Shown here: positions 14,202 to 25,379 of the stretch, in pieces
Layout of the letters: each line of letters starts with the position of its first letter
Position numbering within the stretch: position 1 is the first letter of the stretch
NCBI RefSeq assembly: GCF_009759685.1
Contig: NZ_CP046654.1
Coordinates: 1,550,001 to 1,614,000 of the forward strand
Source of the DNA: Acinetobacter baumannii
Lineage (GTDB): Bacteria > Pseudomonadota > Gammaproteobacteria > Pseudomonadales > Moraxellaceae
Direction of reading: 5' to 3'
DNA: 64,000 bases
Position numbers and translations under genes: made by a program
Notes under the pieces: model-generated
What the model saw: only the letters and a program-made list of their open reading frames with translations
Databases searched by the model: none
What the model was told of the DNA's origin: nothing

Positions 14202-15738
<1,537 letters not shown>

Positions 15739-15797
15739 ACGAAAGATTGACGATTGGTAAGAATCCACAACAAGTTGTTCTTCATAGATGTATCTGA

Positions 15798-15874
<77 letters not shown>

Positions 15875-15929
15875 TGACTTTGACTGGTTGAAGTTATAGA
15901 TAAAAGATACATGATTGATGATGTAAGCT

Positions 15930-16005
15930 GGGGACTTAGCTTAGTTGGTAGAGCGCCTGCTTTGCACGCAGGAGGTCAGGAGTTCGACTCTCCTAGTCTC
16001 CACCA
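15930..16005 (+). tRNA. tRNA-Ala (anticodon TGC)
   Basis: A 76-nt cloverleaf with acceptor stem GGGGACT/AGTCTCC (one G-U pair), anticodon loop TTTGCAC (anticodon TGC), T-loop GTTCGACTC and an encoded CCA. It is the second spacer tRNA of the operon. Confidence 0.98.
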
Positions 16006-16344
16006 GAACTTAAGATAAGTTCGGATTACAGAAATTAGTAAATAAAGATTGAGATCTTGGTTTATTAACTTCTGTGATTTCATTATCACGGTAATTAGTG
16101 TGATCTGACGAAGACACATTAACTCATTAACAGATTGGCAAAATTGAGTCTGAAATAAATTGTTCACTCAAGAGTTTAGGTTAAGCAATTAATCTAGATG
16201 AATTGAGAACTAGCAAATTAACTGAATCAAGCGTTTTGGTATGTGAATTTAGATTGAAGCTGTACAGTGCTTAAGTGCACAGTGCTCTAAACTGAAATGT
16301 TGAAGTTACTAACTTGTAGGTAACATCGACTGTTTGGGGTTGTA
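16006..16344 (+). other. Spacer between tRNA-Ala and 23S
   Basis: An AT-rich transcribed spacer of about 340 bp with no gene. Its end (16339-16352) is complementary to 19230-19243 after the 23S gene (GTTGTATAGTCAAG pairs with CTTGACTATACAAC), forming the 23S processing stem. Confidence 0.8.
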
Positions 16345-19239
<2,895 letters not shown>

Positions 19240-19422
19240 CAACACCCAAGCAGTTGTATATGAAGCATCAATCGATTCTTAAATATGCAAGACAACTTGA
19301 TTTAGTTATACCTCTAGCTAAAATGAACAGATAAAGTAAGATTCAATCAGCCCAGTCTGTTACAGATTTGGAAAACGCTTCGGCATCAAATAAGACCCAA
19401 GCAAGTATCCATAAACAGTTGT

Positions 19423-19537
19423 GCTGGCGACCATAGCAAGAGTGAACCACCTGATCCCTTCCCGAACTCAGAAGTGAAACCTCTTAGCGCTGATGGTAGT
19501 GTGGGATTACCCATGTGAGAGTAAGTCATCGCCAGCT
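19423..19537 (+). rRNA. rrf: 5S ribosomal RNA
   Basis: A 5S rRNA of about 115 nt whose ends pair (GCTGGCGA / TCGCCAGC) and which contains the conserved CCGAACTCAGAAGTGAAAC loop. It is the last gene of the rRNA operon. Confidence 0.97.
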
Positions 19538-19700: not shown

Positions 19701-20243
19701 ATGCAGTTCAAAATTATCGCAGCCCAAGATCTAGATAGAAATCAACGTCATCAGATTGCTGAGTTATGTTTTTCTGCTTTTGATGAAGATCCTTGGACTC
19801 AATATGCTTTTATGCAAAAAGCTATTCATGTCGCTGGTATATTAAACAATCAAATTGTCTCACATGCCTTATGGACGGATAGAGTTTTTACCATAAATGG
19901 TAGTTCCGATGTGAAAACTGCTTATGTAGAGTATGTGACCACTGATTACACGATGAGAGGTAAGGGGCTTGCATCACAATTATTAAAATATTTAGTAGAC
20001 ACATTAACTCATCTGGAATATGGGCTTGCTGCATTACAACCAGAAGATGAAGCATTTTATGAAAAATTAGGATGGACTGTTTGGAAAGGAAATTTATCTA
20101 TCAAACAAAACACTTTCAGTTATCTAACGGATGAGTATGAAATTATGCTATATTCTTTAAATATTCAGATGAAAGACCAGCTATCAAATAGTTCAGAAGA
20201 GGACACTATTTGTGCAGATTGGCGAGAAGGTGAACTTTGGTAG
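19701..20243 (+). CDS. GNAT acetyltransferase resembling aminoglycoside AAC(2')
   Basis: A 180-aa GNAT enzyme that transfers an acetyl group from acetyl-CoA. The acetyl-CoA loop is TMRGKGLASQLL (Arg86 to Ala91, fitting RxxGxA), preceded by the strand AYVEYVTTDY. Three features match the AAC(2')-I family of aminoglycoside acetyltransferases as I remember it: the YVE motif before the loop, the FYEKLGWTVWKG segment, and above all the C-terminal end ADWREGELW (compare CDWREGDVW in mycobacterial enzymes). Length also matches (178-195 aa). It could instead acetylate a native amino sugar or peptidoglycan precursor, as suggested for AAC(2')-Ia. It is a single gene just after the rRNA operon terminator. 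Confidence 0.75.
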   Translation: MQFKIIAAQDLDRNQRHQIAELCFSAFDEDPWTQYAFMQKAIHVAGILNNQIVSHALWTDRVFTINGSSDVKTAYVEYVTTDYTMRGKGLASQLLKYLVDTLTHLEYGLAALQPEDEAFYEKLGWTVWKGNLSIKQNTFSYLTDEYEIMLYSLNIQMKDQLSNSSEEDTICADWREGELW

Positions 20244-20407
20244 TAATTATACTTGGGCTTTAATGCTGCAGCGAAAGTTTACTTTGGATTGGATACTATA
20301 TATTTTAAGTATTTGATTTTACTATTTTTATATCTTTTTATTTTTAATGTAAATTCCATTTTTTATTTTACTTCACTTTTTCTACTTTCCTGTTTAACTG
20401 ACAAGCC

Positions 20408-20427
20408 TATAATGATTCAGAATCATT
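20408..20427 (+). promoter_or_regulatory. cysK promoter minus-10 box abutting a 17-bp palindrome
   Basis: TATAAT (20408-20413) overlaps a perfect 17-base palindrome, AATGATTC-A-GAATCATT (20411-20427), 23 bp before the cysK start. The palindrome covers the expected transcription start, where a bound protein would block RNA polymerase. The half-sites resemble part of a Fur box but do not fully match it. Confidence 0.5.
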
Positions 20428-20449
20428 CCAAATCTAATAAGGATATAAC

Positions 20450-21448
20450 ATGTCTACTGATCCACAATTCCCAACACCCAATAATTTAGGTATCGCAGTT
20501 TATTCAAATAATGCCGAAGCTATTGGTAATACACCTTTAGTACGTATTAACCGTTTGATTAAAACGGGCGCAACCGTTTTAGCCAAAGTAGAAAGTCGTA
20601 ACCCAGCTTTTTCTGTGAAATGTCGTATCGGGGCGGCGCTTATTGCAGATGCGGAAAAACGTGGTGTGCTAAAAGAAGGCATGCATATTGTTGAACCAAC
20701 CAGTGGTAATACTGGTATTGCTTTGGCGTTCGTAGCGGCGGCAAAAGGTTATTCCATTACTTTAACTATGCCTGCAAGCATGAGCCTTGAGCGTAGAAAA
20801 GTGTTAAAAGCACTCGGTGCTAATTTAGTCCTAACCGAACCAGCGAAGGGAATGAAAGGTGCAGTTGATGAAGCTGTGCGATTAGCAACTGAACAGCCAG
20901 AAATTTATTTCTTGCCACAACAGTTTGAAAACCCAGCTAATCCACAAATTCATGTTGATACAACTGGACCAGAAATCTGGCAAGCAACAGGTGGGCAAGT
21001 TGATATCTTGGTAGCTGGTGTAGGTACAGGAGGTACGATTACGGGTATTTCTCGTTATTTTGAACAAGTTCAGAATAAGCCATTGTACTCAGTAGCAGTT
21101 GAACCTGCTGAGTCTCCAATTATTACTCAAACAAAAAAAGGTGAGAACATTACACCAGCACCGCATAAAATTCAGGGAATTGGAGCAAACTTTATTCCAA
21201 AGAATCTTGATTTAGATCTGGTTGATGAAGTCTTACCAGTGAGTAGTGAAGAAGCAATTCAATGGGCGAGAAATTGTGCCACCCAAGAAGGTATTTTAGT
21301 GGGTATTTCAAGTGGTGCTGCATTGGCAGCAGCGGCTAAAATTGCAGAACGTCCTGAAAATGCAGGTAAAACAATTGTTGTTATTCTTCCAGATAGTGGG
21401 GAACGCTATTTATCTTCTGTTTTATTTGAAGGTTTATTTGACGAATAA
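20450..21448 (+). CDS. cysK: Cysteine synthase (O-acetylserine sulfhydrylase A)
   Basis: The 332-aa PLP enzyme makes cysteine from O-acetylserine and sulfide. Lys57 in [11 protein letters not shown] carries the cofactor, TSGNTG (84-89) binds substrate, and [10 protein letters not shown] binds the PLP phosphate. The NPAFSVKCR context matches CysK rather than CysM (which has NPGGSVKDR). The AAGGATATAAC ribosome site supports the chosen ATG. The gene is a single unit ending at a strong terminator. Confidence 0.93.
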
Positions 21449-21460
21449 AATTAATCGTAT

Positions 21461-21490
21461 AAAAAAGCCCATGAATAAATGGGCTTTTTT
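21461..21490. terminator. Bidirectional terminator between cysK and the transglycosylase gene
   Basis: AAAAAAGCCCAT and ATGGGCTTTTTT pair around a short loop, with T runs on both strands; it serves the two convergent genes. Confidence 0.88.
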
Positions 21491-21503
21491 ATTTAATCTT
21501 AAT

Positions 21504-22112
21504 TTATAAAGCACTTTTTAAAGTTTTCTGATGACGTTTCACAGATCGAGCATATTTTTTTGCTTTGTGGCGTGTCCAGAAACTTCGTTCATATCCTGTT
21601 GGACCAACATTATAATATGCTGTCGCTTTGAACCAGCTATCTGCTGTCTGATAGTAATGATTTAAAATATAAGCACCACATTGGATGTTGGTAGATTCAT
21701 CATACAAGTTACCAGCACAAGTTTGTTGCCAATAACTGGGAATAATTTGTGTTAACCCAATAGCCCCGGTGGGAGAGCGAGCATTACTATTATAGCTAGA
21801 CTCTTGCCTGATCACGGCTGCCAATAAAAGCGGTGGAACATTATATCTATCAGCGCTTTGAATAATCATTGGAGATAGGCGATTTGCTGTACTTGGCGGA
21901 ACGGAATAAGCTTTTTGTAAGCCAGACGAAAGCTTACTTGAGCGCCAAGAAAATGAACCGCTATTAGGGCCTAAACTTGTACATCCCGTCATTATTGTCA
22001 TCAACGCAATAATAAAAAATTTGAGACTAAGGCGCTGTAATTGTGATGGTGCAAAATGATCTTGAGCTAAAGATGAGGTAAGCAAAATACAAAACCAATA
22101 ATCAAATTTCAA
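21504..22112 (-). CDS. Lytic transglycosylase lipoprotein (SLT domain)
   Basis: A 202-aa enzyme that should cleave peptidoglycan glycan strands and leave 1,6-anhydro ends. The SLT fold is clear: LLLAAVIRQESSYNSNARSPTGAIGLTQIIP with catalytic Glu104, then AYILNHYYQ and ATAYYNVGPTGY. A hydrophobic stretch ends in MTGC (Cys44), a plausible lipobox, so it should be anchored in the envelope. The start is uncertain: the ATG at 22112 leaves an unusually long 30-residue lead before the hydrophobic segment, and no ATG lies between it and that segment. A Rsm-like RNA candidate lies just upstream on the same strand, separated by that RNA's own terminator. Confidence 0.85.
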   Translation of the reverse strand: MKFDYWFCILLTSSLAQDHFAPSQLQRLSLKFFIIALMTIMTGCTSLGPNSGSFSWRSSKLSSGLQKAYSVPPSTANRLSPMIIQSADRYNVPPLLLAAVIRQESSYNSNARSPTGAIGLTQIIPSYWQQTCAGNLYDESTNIQCGAYILNHYYQTADSWFKATAYYNVGPTGYERSFWTRHKAKKYARSVKRHQKTLKSAL

Positions 22113-22205
22113 ATGAAATGATGGTATTCAGCCGTATTTATCGGATCAATATAAGTTCTGTTGCTCAGCCCAAGCAAAAAGTAAGATTTTTGTATTATTG
22201 AAATG

Positions 22206-22232
22206 AAAAAACCCCGACATCCTGTCGAGGTT
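22206..22232 (-). terminator. Intrinsic terminator of the Rsm-like RNA
   Basis: An 8-bp stem (CCTCGACA / TGTCGGGG, one G-U pair) with a GGA loop is followed by T6 on the minus strand. It doubles as the fourth GGA hairpin. Confidence 0.85.
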
Positions 22233-22319
22233 TCTTCGTATTCAGCTTTATGTAGCTAACTCCTGTCAACTACCGCTTCCTGCGTTCTTATTCTTCTTCA
22301 ATGAGACTTCCTGTCTCTC
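22206..22319 (-). ncRNA. Candidate Rsm/CsrB-type small RNA with GGA hairpin loops
   Basis: On the minus strand the 305-bp gap between the transglycosylase and flavodoxin genes encodes a row of four hairpins, each with GGA in its loop. In transcript order they are: GAGAC-AGGAA-GTCTC (22317-22303); CGC-AGGAA-GCG (22284-22274); a 9-bp stem GTAGTTGAC/GTTAGCTAC around AGGA (22273-22252, two G-U pairs); and CCTCGACA-GGA-TGTCGGGG followed by six T (22230-22206), which is also the terminator. The single-stranded parts are A/G-rich. This is the layout of RsmX/Y/Z RNAs (about 110-130 nt), which bind and titrate the regulator CsrA/RsmA. A GacA-box-like palindrome lies upstream. The 5' end is inferred from a TATAAA at 22325-22330. 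No ORF overlaps it. Confidence 0.75.
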
Positions 22320-22324
22320 TATGA

Positions 22325-22330
22325 TTTATA
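22325..22330 (-). promoter_or_regulatory. Putative minus-10 box of the Rsm-like RNA
   Basis: TATAAA on the minus strand lies 5-6 bases before the proposed RNA start. No clear minus-35 hexamer is present, as expected for a promoter that depends on an activator. Confidence 0.45.
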
Positions 22331-22379
22331 TGTTATGAAAAAATACTCAAGTTGAATATCCGTTAATGACCCCAAATTT

Positions 22380-22397
22380 TGTACGTTTTAACTTACA
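22380..22397. promoter_or_regulatory. GacA-type upstream activating sequence
   Basis: TGTACG-TTTTAA-CTTACA matches the known GacA box TGTAAG-N6-CTTACA at 11 of 12 defined positions. Its centre lies about 70 bp upstream of the inferred start of the Rsm-like RNA, the distance typical of rsmY/rsmZ promoters. It lies between the flavodoxin stop codon and the RNA. Confidence 0.7.
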
Positions 22398-22417
22398 GGT
22401 ATTTTTCAACTATGGTG

Positions 22418-22984
22418 TTAAGTCCCTTGATAAGCATTTAAGGTCAATGCAAAATTTTCACCAAATTGTTGAGCAGTTTTAATATCTCCTTCATCAAAAC
22501 CATCTGCATTACTAGCATGTTCAGCCTGAGCCATTAAACCTGACCATGAACCGAGTCGGTTAGCTGCTTGTGTATAGGCAACACCTTGATGCTGTTCTGG
22601 TAGAATTGGGTTACCTACCCATAACATGCCGTGTTGCATGCAAAAAGTAAAAATTGAAATTAGTGTGGATTGTTTATCACCAGCAGGAAGAGATGAAACG
22701 GTAAACCCAGCCGCTAATTTTCCTTTAAAACTTTGTTTTTTCCATAATGGACCAGTTGCATCCATGAGCTGTTTTAACTTGGAAGATACACCACCTAAAT
22801 AAGTGGGAGATCCCCAAATTAATCCGTCATATTGGATAAGAATTCCTGAGCGCTCGATAAGATCCTCGGCATTGAGTAAATCTGCTTTAATATTGTGATG
22901 GCTCAAGACGCCAATTTGAATTTGCTGAGCAATAAATTGAGTATGGCCTTGGCGGCTATGGTAAATAATGGCAACAGTTTTCAT
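22418..22984 (-). CDS. Flavodoxin-like NAD(P)H-dependent oxidoreductase
   Basis: A 188-aa FMN-binding protein with the flavodoxin fold. The N-terminal YHSRQGHTQFIAQQI binds the FMN phosphate, and WGSPTYLGGVSSKLKQLMDATGPLW is the flavin-flanking segment seen in WrbA-like quinone reductases. A role in two-electron quinone reduction or related redox protection is likely; the substrate is not known. It lies 16 bp after the DUF2938 gene in the same direction, divergent from a MerR regulator, so the pair is probably induced together by redox or electrophile stress. Confidence 0.82.
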   Translation of the reverse strand: MKTVAIIYHSRQGHTQFIAQQIQIGVLSHHNIKADLLNAEDLIERSGILIQYDGLIWGSPTYLGGVSSKLKQLMDATGPLWKKQSFKGKLAAGFTVSSLPAGDKQSTLISIFTFCMQHGMLWVGNPILPEQHQGVAYTQAANRLGSWSGLMAQAEHASNADGFDEGDIKTAQQFGENFALTLNAYQGT

Positions 22985-23000
22985 GGAAGTTTCCCTTTAT

Positions 23001-23486
23001 TTAAATTTGAAATAGTTTTGCAGTGAGATATAAACCACAGCCAAAAACACTATGGTTCAGCAAACTTTTCAGACAGTTCAAAAAAGGATGAGGTGTTTTT
23101 GATGAGGCAAAACCACTACCCATAGCTGGTTGCATAATAAAAAAAGGAATAAGAACGGTGACCAAACCAAACAGTAGTGCTGAGTAAAACTGAGGGTGGT
23201 CGAGCCAAGTCGAACCTACAATTAAAAGAAAGCTCAATGCGAAGATAATTCCGACACTATAGTGAGCAATCCAGCCTAATAAATATTCCCCCTTCATTGG
23301 AGGACTTTTAGCAATAGATTGATGGACAAGTTTTCCTTGAAATATCCAGCCCACCCAACGTCCAAGAAAGGCAAAGTTTAAAGTCGGGACATTAAATATT
23401 TTTAGTATTAATAGCCATATATCCAGAACGATGGTTGCACCAATACCAAGACATAAAGCTTGAAAGAACAGAGTGGAGGTATTCAT
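23001..23486 (-). CDS. DUF2938 family membrane protein
   Basis: A 161-aa protein with four predicted membrane helices. It matches the DUF2938 pattern (LCLGIGATIVLDIWLLILKIFNVPTLNFAFLGRWVGW near the start and HYSVGIIFALSFLLIVG in the middle). No function is known for the family. It is the first gene of a two-gene unit with the flavodoxin-like oxidoreductase and is divergent from a MerR regulator. A role as a membrane partner of the oxidoreductase is possible but is only inference. Confidence 0.78.
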   Translation of the reverse strand: MNTSTLFFQALCLGIGATIVLDIWLLILKIFNVPTLNFAFLGRWVGWIFQGKLVHQSIAKSPPMKGEYLLGWIAHYSVGIIFALSFLLIVGSTWLDHPQFYSALLFGLVTVLIPFFIMQPAMGSGFASSKTPHPFLNCLKSLLNHSVFGCGLYLTAKLFQI

Positions 23487-23537
23487 TTTTACACCTTGCT
23501 TTTATACGTATGAAACGTGATAAATTTATTGTGCAAG

Positions 23538-23553
23538 TTCAAGTTCACTTGAA
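23538..23553. promoter_or_regulatory. MerR-type operator palindrome
   Basis: A perfect inverted repeat, TTCAAGT-TC-ACTTGAA, lies in the 81-bp divergent promoter region between the MerR and DUF2938 genes, 15 bp before the MerR start codon. MerR proteins bind such dyads between the minus-35 and minus-10 boxes. Confidence 0.55.
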
Positions 23554-23567
23554 GTCAAGAGGATGTT

Positions 23568-23972
23568 ATGGATATTGGTGAAGTTTCTAAAAAGGCAAAA
23601 GTCACAACCGCTACACTACGTTTTTATGAAGAGAAAGGACTAATTAAATCGATAGGGCGGCAAGGTTTGCGTCGGCAGTATGGTAAGCAGGTGCTTGATC
23701 AACTGGCACTTATTGCTTTAGGACGTGCTGCAGGTTTTTCTTTAAATGAAATTGCTACAATGTTTGGGCAAGATGGTAAGCCTGATCTTGACCGTCAAAA
23801 ACTAAAAGATAAAGCTGAACAATTAGAGCAAATGGCAAAGCGATTGCATTTTATCAGCCAGGGATTAGAACACGCTGCTGTATGTCCTGCTGAAAATCAT
23901 ATGGAATGTCCCACTTTCCAAAAATTTTTAAAAGCAGCAATTGCTGGAGAATATCAGCCAACAAAACTTTAA
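23568..23972 (+). CDS. MerR-family transcriptional regulator
   Basis: A 134-aa regulator with an N-terminal winged helix (DIGEVSKKAKVTTATLRFYEEKGLI), the linker RQYGKQVLDQLALIALGRAAGFSLNEI, a dimerisation coiled coil (about 80-110), and a C-terminal segment with two Cys residues (CPAENHMECPTF). The Cys pair might sense a metal, electrophile or redox state, but it is not the four-Cys cluster of SoxR. An AGAGGATGTT ribosome site precedes the ATG. It should control the divergent DUF2938-flavodoxin unit and itself through the palindrome between them. Confidence 0.85.
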   Translation: MDIGEVSKKAKVTTATLRFYEEKGLIKSIGRQGLRRQYGKQVLDQLALIALGRAAGFSLNEIATMFGQDGKPDLDRQKLKDKAEQLEQMAKRLHFISQGLEHAAVCPAENHMECPTFQKFLKAAIAGEYQPTKL

Positions 23973-24119
23973 TTAGCTTTACTAACAAGTTCAGTTTTCT
24001 ATTGGGTGCTAAACAATAGGCTTGTCATATTTTCGCCATAAAGATTTCATATTTTTGAAGCAAAAACTTCATACAAGCTTGATTAAATTTGCTTAATTTT
24101 TTACCAATTGTATAAAATC

Positions 24120-25379
24120 ATGAGCAAAAAAACTTTAATCGCATTATTATGCTGTGCCAGTTTAGGATTGACGGCATGTAACGATGATAACGATCAAGAT
24201 CAAACTTCGCCTACTGAAAACGTTACCGAACCAACTCTAATTTCTTTTGCTAAGTTACCTGTAGAAACTTATGCTGCTGGACCAGACTCAGGGGCATATG
24301 TGAAAGGTGCAAATGGAATTTATCCTCCGTTTAAAGGTCAACCTGTACAGGGATTTTCTGCTGCATTAAAAAATGAAGATGGCAGTTATATGGCAATGGC
24401 CGATAACGGTTTTGGGACTCAAGATAATTCATCAGACTTTTTACTTCGTATTTATAAAATAAAGCCTGATTTCAAAACTAAAACTAAAGGCACCGGTCAA
24501 GTTACTGTACAAAGTTTTATCCAACTGCGTGATCCGAATAAATTAATTCCATTTAATATCATCAATGGTAATACGCCTGAGCGTTTATTAACGGGTGCTG
24601 ATTTTGACCCAGAGTCGATGCAGCGTACTAGTGATGGGACTTACTGGATTGGAGATGAATTTGGTCCATACTTACTCCATTTCTCAGCAGATGGTGTACT
24701 TTTAGACGCTCCGATTCCTTTACCAAATCCATTAAATCCAACTCAAGAATTACGTTCACCACAAAATCAATTTAATAAAGCACAAATTAATTTTGTGGAA
24801 CCTCTTGTTCAACAAAGTGGCGGTTTTGAAGGAATGGCGATTTCACCAGATGGACAATATCTCTATCCGCTTATAGAAAAGCCAATTAAATCAATTCGGG
24901 AAACAGAAAGACAACTGTTGATTTCCCAATTCGATATTAAGAAAAAAGCGTATACAGGAAAATATTATTGGTTCCAGTTAGACAGTAAAGCAACCAATAT
25001 TGGTGATTTCCAACTTTTTAATAATAATGAGGGTATTATTATTGAACGTGATGCCACGCAGAATAATTTAGGCGGCTATAAAAAATTAATTCGTATTAAA
25101 TTAATTGAGTCAGGCCAGCTGGTCAGCCGCGAAGACTTAGTCGATTTAATTAAAATTGCTAACCCGAATATGTTGTATGGCACAGCTAGAGCAGGGGATA
25201 TTAGTACGGGACAGGTTTTTGCCTTCCCATTTGAAACCATTGAAGATGTAATTATTGAAAATGGTACAACACTGACGGTTTTCAATGATAATAACTTCCC
25301 TGGGTCGACGGGACGTAATGCAAAGTTGGCCGATGATAACGAGATTATTCAGATTCGTTTACCAAAAGCTCTCTTCTAA
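24120..25379 (+). CDS. Phytase-like/esterase-like lipoprotein
   Basis: A 419-aa exported lipoprotein: residues 1-20 are a signal peptide ending in the lipobox LTAC (Cys20). The mature part is a beta-propeller-like domain of the esterase-like/phytase-like family (PF13449 type), with landmarks VQGFSAALKNEDGSYMAMADNGFG, DFDPESMQRTSDGTYWIGDEFGPYLLHFSADG, and GFEGMAISPDGQYLYPLIEKP. The family is loosely tied to phosphoester hydrolysis; true phytase activity is unproven. The frame extends to a TTG four codons upstream, but the ATG gives the standard signal peptide. It is a single gene. Confidence 0.82.
   Translation: MSKKTLIALLCCASLGLTACNDDNDQDQTSPTENVTEPTLISFAKLPVETYAAGPDSGAYVKGANGIYPPFKGQPVQGFSAALKNEDGSYMAMADNGFGTQDNSSDFLLRIYKIKPDFKTKTKGTGQVTVQSFIQLRDPNKLIPFNIINGNTPERLLTGADFDPESMQRTSDGTYWIGDEFGPYLLHFSADGVLLDAPIPLPNPLNPTQELRSPQNQFNKAQINFVEPLVQQSGGFEGMAISPDGQYLYPLIEKPIKSIRETERQLLISQFDIKKKAYTGKYYWFQLDSKATNIGDFQLFNNNEGIIIERDATQNNLGGYKKLIRIKLIESGQLVSREDLVDLIKIANPNMLYGTARAGDISTGQVFAFPFETIEDVIIENGTTLTVFNDNNFPGSTGRNAKLADDNEIIQIRLPKALF

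Follow-up and report, generated by a model that had tools for sequence, protein, structure and literature searches.

CsrB of the enterobacteria is a much longer RNA than the one described here, with about 18 repeats, and its loop repeat reads CAGGA(U/A/C)G; CsrB and CsrC titrate CsrA, which is the function that we propose here for an RNA of Acinetobacter baumannii. The RNAs RsmX, RsmY and RsmZ of Pseudomonas have a size near 120 nt, carry GGA in their hairpin loops and are preceded by a GacA box. GacA drives the Rsm RNAs, which in turn titrate CsrA/RsmA (PMC4950607, PMC9928087). The upstream activating sequence of GacA is given as TGTAAG-N6-CTTACA, the box of P. aeruginosa rsmY is placed at -75, and RsmX is described in several paralogous copies, up to five in some Pseudomonas (PMC4950607). 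Within the genus Acinetobacter, Table 2 of PMC5568370 lists for A. baylyi ADP1 two RNAs of 119 and 139 nt that are predicted to regulate RsmA, one of them at 25035-24917 on the minus strand. The same paper refers to a previous prediction (reference 12 there), presumably the 2006 prediction paper. The latter is also cited in a 2025 paper, where a scheme of A. baylyi includes a 'CsrB-like' RNA (PMC12442408).

The locus analyzed here lies on the minus strand of the window, by which we mean the whole stretch of DNA under analysis (64 kb). The window spans C1:1550001-1614000 of a genome (G000) of 3.99 Mb, whose second contig, C2, has 9,540 bp. The features of the locus, in positions of the window, are the following.

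22206..22320, minus strand: body of the candidate RNA, about 115 nt, from the fold and the family alignment
22303..22317, minus strand: hairpin 1, GAGAC-AGGAA-GTCTC, putative CsrA site, from the fold and the alignment
22274..22284, minus strand: hairpin 2, CGC-AGGAA-GCG, weak stem, putative CsrA site, from the MFE fold
22252..22273, minus strand: hairpin 3, 9-bp stem with loop AGGA, putative CsrA site, from the fold and the alignment
22206..22230, minus strand: intrinsic terminator, hairpin CCTCGAC-AGGAT-GTCGGGG plus T6, from sequence, fold and alignment
22325..22330, minus strand: -10-like element TATAAA, from the sequence and related loci
22380..22397, minus strand: GacA-type upstream activating box TGTAAGTTAAAACGTACA, one mismatch to TGTAAG-N6-CTTACA
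22418..22984, minus strand: upstream neighbour, flavodoxin/WrbA-like ORF, with NCBIfam matches all below the curated cut-offs
21504..22112, minus strand: downstream neighbour, lytic transglycosylase-like ORF, with matches below the curated cut-offs (scanned: 21504-22037)

The RNA start near 22320 is a presumed one, based on the family alignment together with the -10 element. The preliminary description had reported four minus-strand hairpins with GGA loops, the last of them a terminator with T6, and all four are indeed found, both in the sequence and in the MFE fold. The terminator consists of a hairpin at 22230-22212 and the T6 at 22211-22206, and its loop AGGAT constitutes a putative fourth CsrA site. 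The MFE amounts to -36.9 kcal/mol (z -6.1), a value that none of 200 shuffles reached. The MFE fold closes the terminator loop down to GGA, and the centroid fold is without hairpin 2. The clustering of such loops is rare in its surroundings: at least three GGA hairpin loops occur in 8 of 12,776 windows of 120 nt (overlapping, step 10, both strands of the 64 kb), all eight of which overlap the locus, and of 1000 dinucleotide-shuffled versions of the locus a single one reached four such loops. No part of 22206-22397 is covered by an ORF of at least 60 aa. A consensus scan listed no minus-strand terminator at the locus, which it may have missed because the stem continues into the T tract by A-U pairs; the same scan listed two plus-strand terminator-like sites within the locus hairpins. 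The 195-bp locus is identical in two A. baumannii chromosome records. Elsewhere in the window, at 14202-19537 on the plus strand, lies an rRNA operon (16S, 23S, 5S) together with two tRNAs, and two minus-strand ORFs listed inside its 23S gene are probably spurious.

An initial DNA search covered 38 genomes: the genome itself, 24 others of the genus and 13 from other genera of the order. It found matches in 22 of them, exclusively Acinetobacter and mostly with several matches each. Alignment A1 comprises 33 sequences, picked by box, GGA count and terminator, with one copy of the own genome added by hand, and its structure was taken from the first sequence. The covariance model R1 then finds seven places in the own genome with E below 1e-5.

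C1:1572203-1572324: the copy at the locus
within C1:1466146-1468128: tandem array of three copies
C1:1079749: single copy
C1:2240878: single copy
plasmid: altered copy

The six chromosomal copies were in the model, the plasmid copy was not. Among 119 Acinetobacter genomes 115 have R1 matches (E <= 0.001), with 0 to 11 copies per genome, a median of 6 and 698 copies in all, and matches are found in 90 of the 94 genomes that are left after removal of the 25 of the initial search, from which the model sequences had come. Outside Acinetobacter, 193 genomes of the order yielded no match at E <= 0.001 and a single one at 0.003 (stricter filters). At this search sensitivity the family is Acinetobacter-specific. 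The RNA of the locus is one member of this multi-copy family and not 'the' Acinetobacter counterpart of the Rsm RNAs for which the preliminary description had taken it; a functional counterpart it may well be, yet as one of several copies and outside the families of Rfam. Small ORFs are situated between the copies of the tandem array (L039 1648-3629), and a match to C4 antisense RNA is found about 1.2 kb beyond it. Six records of the phage collection match a chromosomal copy; all carry the name Acinetobacter phage MD-2021a and are possibly of bacterial origin.

The proposed comparison with the Rfam models of RsmY/Z and CsrB came out negative. No Csr/Rsm family reached threshold, neither in positions 20000-25000 nor in the locus and six related loci (both searched at relaxed settings), nor in the whole window at gathering thresholds, and the covariance models of RsmY (RF00195), PrrB/RsmZ, CsrB and CsrC did not match this locus. 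The best Csr/Rsm score was 23.6 bits for RsmY, against a gathering value of 57, and concerned the paralogue L040; the weak hits at the locus itself look like terminator matches. The resemblance to RsmX, RsmY and RsmZ lies in size, GGA hairpin loops and GacA box and, for RsmX, in the presence of several paralogous copies. The differences are the second half of the Acinetobacter box, which is mostly CGTACA or CCTACA (40 loci), the higher number of copies (up to 11), the occurrence of copies on plasmids and the lack of an Rfam match at threshold. The last point sets the RNA apart from CsrB and CsrC as well, although the loop repeat of CsrB matches three of the four loops at this locus.

A second claim of the preliminary description concerned a GacA box upstream of the start, and this box is present: TGTAAGTTAAAACGTACA is palindromic, 18 bp long and located 60-77 bp upstream of the presumed RNA start. 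The locus has no good -35, as might be expected of an activator-dependent promoter, and a sigma-70 consensus scan listed no promoter there. The box alone is not significant in the 64 kb, where 4 matches with at most two mismatches compare with 3.5 expected; its significance comes from the conserved placement across loci, not from its count in the window. In the whole genome a box with at most one mismatch is found at 13 places, versus 7 for a reversed control, and by our reading of the sequence a GGA RNA follows seven of the 13, one being the altered plasmid copy. Because the sequences of A1 had partly been chosen by their box, the placement was analyzed separately in 40 loci, hand-picked from the best listed R1 matches of 40 genomes outside the model set. 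In all 40, several of which are close relatives and which are therefore not 40 independent tests, the best box starts 71-73 nt upstream of the R1 model start, so that the box is kept in relatives as had been anticipated. It has one mismatch in 25 loci, two in 11 and three in 4. Among mononucleotide-shuffled upstream regions 0.7% reach two mismatches or fewer and 8% reach three or fewer, which means that boxes with three mismatches are not rare by chance. Seven positions of the box (1-3, 6, 13, 16 and 17) do not vary among the 40 loci, and the commonest forms are TGTA(A/C/G)G-N6-C(G/C/T)TACA. Perfect GacA-type palindromes are also found at G000:C1:1029-1046 and 3394119-3394136, with no comparable GGA RNA within 330 nt on either strand; downstream of the former, near the contig start, one hairpin with a GGA loop is found, with T-rich sequence behind it.

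The genomic context deserves separate consideration. The stop of the WrbA-like ORF precedes the box by about 20 bp, on the same strand as the RNA, and one could therefore regard the RNA as the 3' UTR and terminator of that gene, without a promoter of its own, in which case the GGA hairpins may still bind CsrA. There is a precedent for such an origin, as RsmW of P. aeruginosa derives from a 3' UTR (PMC4950607). However, members of the family are present at many places with the same distance between box and RNA, and the relatives compared at the orthologous site keep box and spacing though their RNA is further away from the WrbA-like gene: in 20 of 24 named Acinetobacter loci it is found 140-330 bp downstream, compared to 94 bp here. 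This makes the derivation from the WrbA-like transcript very improbable. A plain terminator of the WrbA-like gene was rejected, as box and spacing are kept at many family sites.

Of the four other loci, two (L066, L067) have the RNA solely at a second site some 0.8 kb further on; in L055 it is found only elsewhere in the fetched stretch, and L056 has none. Both sites are occupied in ten of the 24 loci, in one of which, L057, a second copy has lost its box. The 25 non-Acinetobacter loci of the same comparison have no such RNA up to E = 1. Because the position is kept in 20 of 24 named Acinetobacter loci, the copy at the locus is, on this positional evidence, an old and orthologous member of the family; the orthologous RNA is found in A. 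pittii, A. nosocomialis, A. seifertii, A. calcoaceticus, A. lactucae and others.

The family is not the only set of RNAs behind a GacA-type box. Nine chromosomal candidates were found in the genome, the six R1 copies and three others.

C1:1822665 (box) to about 1822906 (L041 1466-1725), plus strand: longer GGA-rich RNA with a box and eight GGA
C1:1747170 onward (L044 3171-3395), plus strand: GacA-box RNA candidate with a perfect box
C1:1747617 onward (L044 3618-3845), plus strand: GacA-box candidate directly behind the preceding one, with a GGA-rich 5' end

The RNA at C1:1822665 is single-copy and has no match in Rfam. In alignment A2, which has 19 sequences, three of its GGA triplets never vary, and all 19 loci are preceded by a box that has no more than two mismatches. 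The corresponding model R2 finds it in 110 of the 119 Acinetobacter genomes, including G063, which is without an R1 match; there is one main match per genome, and a few genomes have an extra weak one. This RNA may be the RsmZ-like main CsrA sponge of the genus. The RNA at C1:1747170 has a nearly invariant 3' region that ends in a terminator, two conserved GGA sites and a box in all 19 usable loci, and may be a GacA-controlled base-pairing RNA. (In the comparison of the two other RNA types L193 was left out and L223 was unaligned.) A query spanning C1:1747170 and C1:1747617 matches 24 of 25 Acinetobacter genomes; the first of the two candidates is genus-wide, whereas the second is found at full length in only three relatives of that search (G004, G007 and G008).

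In alignment A1 91.4% of the cells form standard pairs, and 18 of the 24 pairs show change on both sides. The covariation score is 0.511; shuffles give a mean of 0.232 (sd 0.014), and slid partners do not exceed 0.119. Kinship of the sequences inflates the shuffle controls, and it is the slid control and the changes on both sides that carry the covariation argument. The number of further pair types, 40, does not exceed that of the shuffles (mean 37.7; 74 of 500 reach 40). The RNAalifold consensus contains hairpin 1, hairpin 3 and the terminator and is without hairpin 2, for which some 70% of the cells pair, partly owing to misalignment. The AGGA is invariant in the loops of hairpin 1 and the terminator of the 33 sequences and nearly invariant in the other two, while the stems around it vary. 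Covarying stems with fixed GGA loops are thus what an alignment across Acinetobacter, suggested beforehand as a check, revealed, and fixed loops on changing stems would be expected of a repeated protein-binding site on interchangeable stems.

Loops that are invariant or nearly so could also be read as seeds, and the RNA, activated by GacA, might then act by base pairing of its AGGA loops with C/U-rich targets instead of binding CsrA. The nearly invariant 3' stretch of the GacA-box RNA at C1:1747170, which resembles a pairing seed, is in line with such a possibility. Nevertheless, the same motif recurs in all four loops while the stems vary, as is found for protein-binding repeats, and term searches in the main texts of two papers on the RNA interactome of A. 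baumannii (PMC12802169, PMC11472050) found such RNAs nowhere mentioned, so that we give base pairing little chance. The idea of a dispersed, mobile-element-like repeat without RNA function, to which the multiple copies, the tandem arrays and the plasmid copies might point, is hardly credible and was rejected in view of the compensatory stem changes with fixed loops, the constant promoter architecture and the orthologous position kept in 20 of the 24 loci.

The locus very probably encodes a GacA-activated, CsrA-sequestering small RNA. Phosphorylated GacA would bind the 18-bp box and thereby activate transcription of the RNA of about 115 nt, whose four hairpins would present their GGA loops such that a single RNA could bind CsrA at up to four sites. 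Sequestration of CsrA would then release the mRNAs that CsrA represses (or protects), and the effects of the six chromosomal copies would add up with that of at least one longer GGA-rich RNA. As the loops are penta- or tetraloops, their affinity for CsrA cannot be assumed. Virulence, motility or stress traits, named as outputs in the preliminary description, are plausible.

The protein partners that this mechanism would involve are encoded in the genome. One csrA scores over the Pfam cut-off, and its product has L4 and R44, which are key RNA-binding residues of CsrA. A response regulator of the UvrY/SirA/GacA family is encoded at C1:1619339-1619971, about 5 kb beyond the end of the window; it scores 268 bits against a curated NCBIfam cut-off of 280, and the next NCBIfam match has 165 bits. 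Since a GacA query matches 118 of the 119 Acinetobacter genomes (E <= 1e-60) and csrA was found in 11 of 11 genomes tested, co-occurrence of the RNA with GacA or CsrA cannot discriminate. Three of the 119 genomes (G039, G045 and G090) have neither an R1 nor an R2 match at threshold, yet GacA and CsrA are present; with 71-84% identity, their GacA proteins belong to the most divergent ones, and diverged RNAs are possible in these genomes. In the literature csrA has been described as essential for growth of A. baumannii on rich medium (PMC12802169), and GacA as a virulence regulator of Acinetobacter that also affects metabolism (PMC12070743, PMC5295007). In A. baylyi, growth that was gained in part by deletion of gacA was lost upon deletion of csrA too, and the authors of that 2025 study proposed unnamed CsrA-sequestering RNAs (PMC12455638). 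Such epistasis between gacA and csrA is what the sponge model predicts and provides independent genetic support within the genus.

Whether such an RNA had already been reported was left open in the preliminary description, and the answer is a mixed one: RNAs of this kind have been predicted in A. baylyi (PMC5568370), and among the matches listed, titles and the first lines of abstracts name no Rsm or Csr RNA in A. baumannii and mention neither the copy number of such RNAs nor their presence on plasmids. The RNA of the locus may already be included, without a name, among the sRNAs tabulated in a transcriptome study. The RNAs of strain ADP1 resemble the family in genus, size and predicted role; they differ in that the relevant section of PMC5568370 offers a prediction only, with no family model, plasmid copies or A. 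baumannii loci. Five relatives (G003, G011, G021, G085 and G119) have minus-strand R1 hits 23-26 kb from the contig start, and judged by this position the RNA predicted at 25035-24917 in ADP1 probably belongs to the same family. What we describe is a new family, absent from Rfam, of a known functional kind and with unusual copy number and mobility.

This mobility is apparent from the copies on plasmids, which were found at the following places.

L038 (contig C2, pMAC), 2635-2836: plasmid copy of the own genome
L180, L181 and L182, near 2428-2622: copies on other plasmids

The 202-bp stretch around the plasmid copy is identical to A. baumannii pMAC (NC_006877.1, 9,540 bp) and to a plasmid record of ATCC 19606, and the pMAC-type stretch matches 283 plasmid records, 282 of which are Acinetobacter. 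With a chromosomal copy as query 440 plasmid records were matched, at least one of which is a mis-filed chromosome; 419 are Acinetobacter, and 90 of the 440 cover at least 80% of the query. Three of the four plasmids examined, pAB1 (ATCC 17978), pYC103-1 and p255n_1, have the four AGGA motifs in register and a two-mismatch box at the usual distance. The pMAC copy has retained the terminator, the hairpin 3 stem and a box with one mismatch; it has one AGGA hairpin motif only, which is absent from the MFE fold, and its terminator loop reads ATGAC. These sequences suggest that the RNA exists on plasmids in two forms, as an intact sponge and as an altered version. In both pMAC and pYC103-1 the RNA is located just upstream of an annotated pair of a RelE/ParE-type toxin and a helix-turn-helix protein. 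The 21 non-Acinetobacter plasmid records (Klebsiella, Raoultella, Enterobacter) match parts of a family copy: among the matches listed, the two from K. pneumoniae share 44 bp with the 3' part of the query, and one from Klebsiella sp. (match H112) covers 81 nt of it.

A plasmid-encoded CsrA/Rsm-type protein, RsmQ, is known to intervene in the Csr/Rsm system of the host (PMC9928087). The Acinetobacter elements would likewise be plasmid products acting on the host Csr/Rsm system, but as RNA sponges instead of a protein. As a tentative proposal, about which we remain rather doubtful, the plasmids could carry working GacA-driven CsrA sponges that tilt the Csr switch of the host when GacS/GacA is on, and the chromosomal copy number (median 6, up to 11) could represent a genus-wide dosage device that was partly spread by mobile DNA, with the pMAC form looking as if it had been turned to another use. 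If true, the plasmid sponges of Acinetobacter would be the RNA counterpart of RsmQ. With the coordinates of the candidate RNAs and a covariance model at hand, the link between GacS/GacA and CsrA becomes testable, and the copy number together with the plasmid copies raises a new question, that of dosage and horizontal control.
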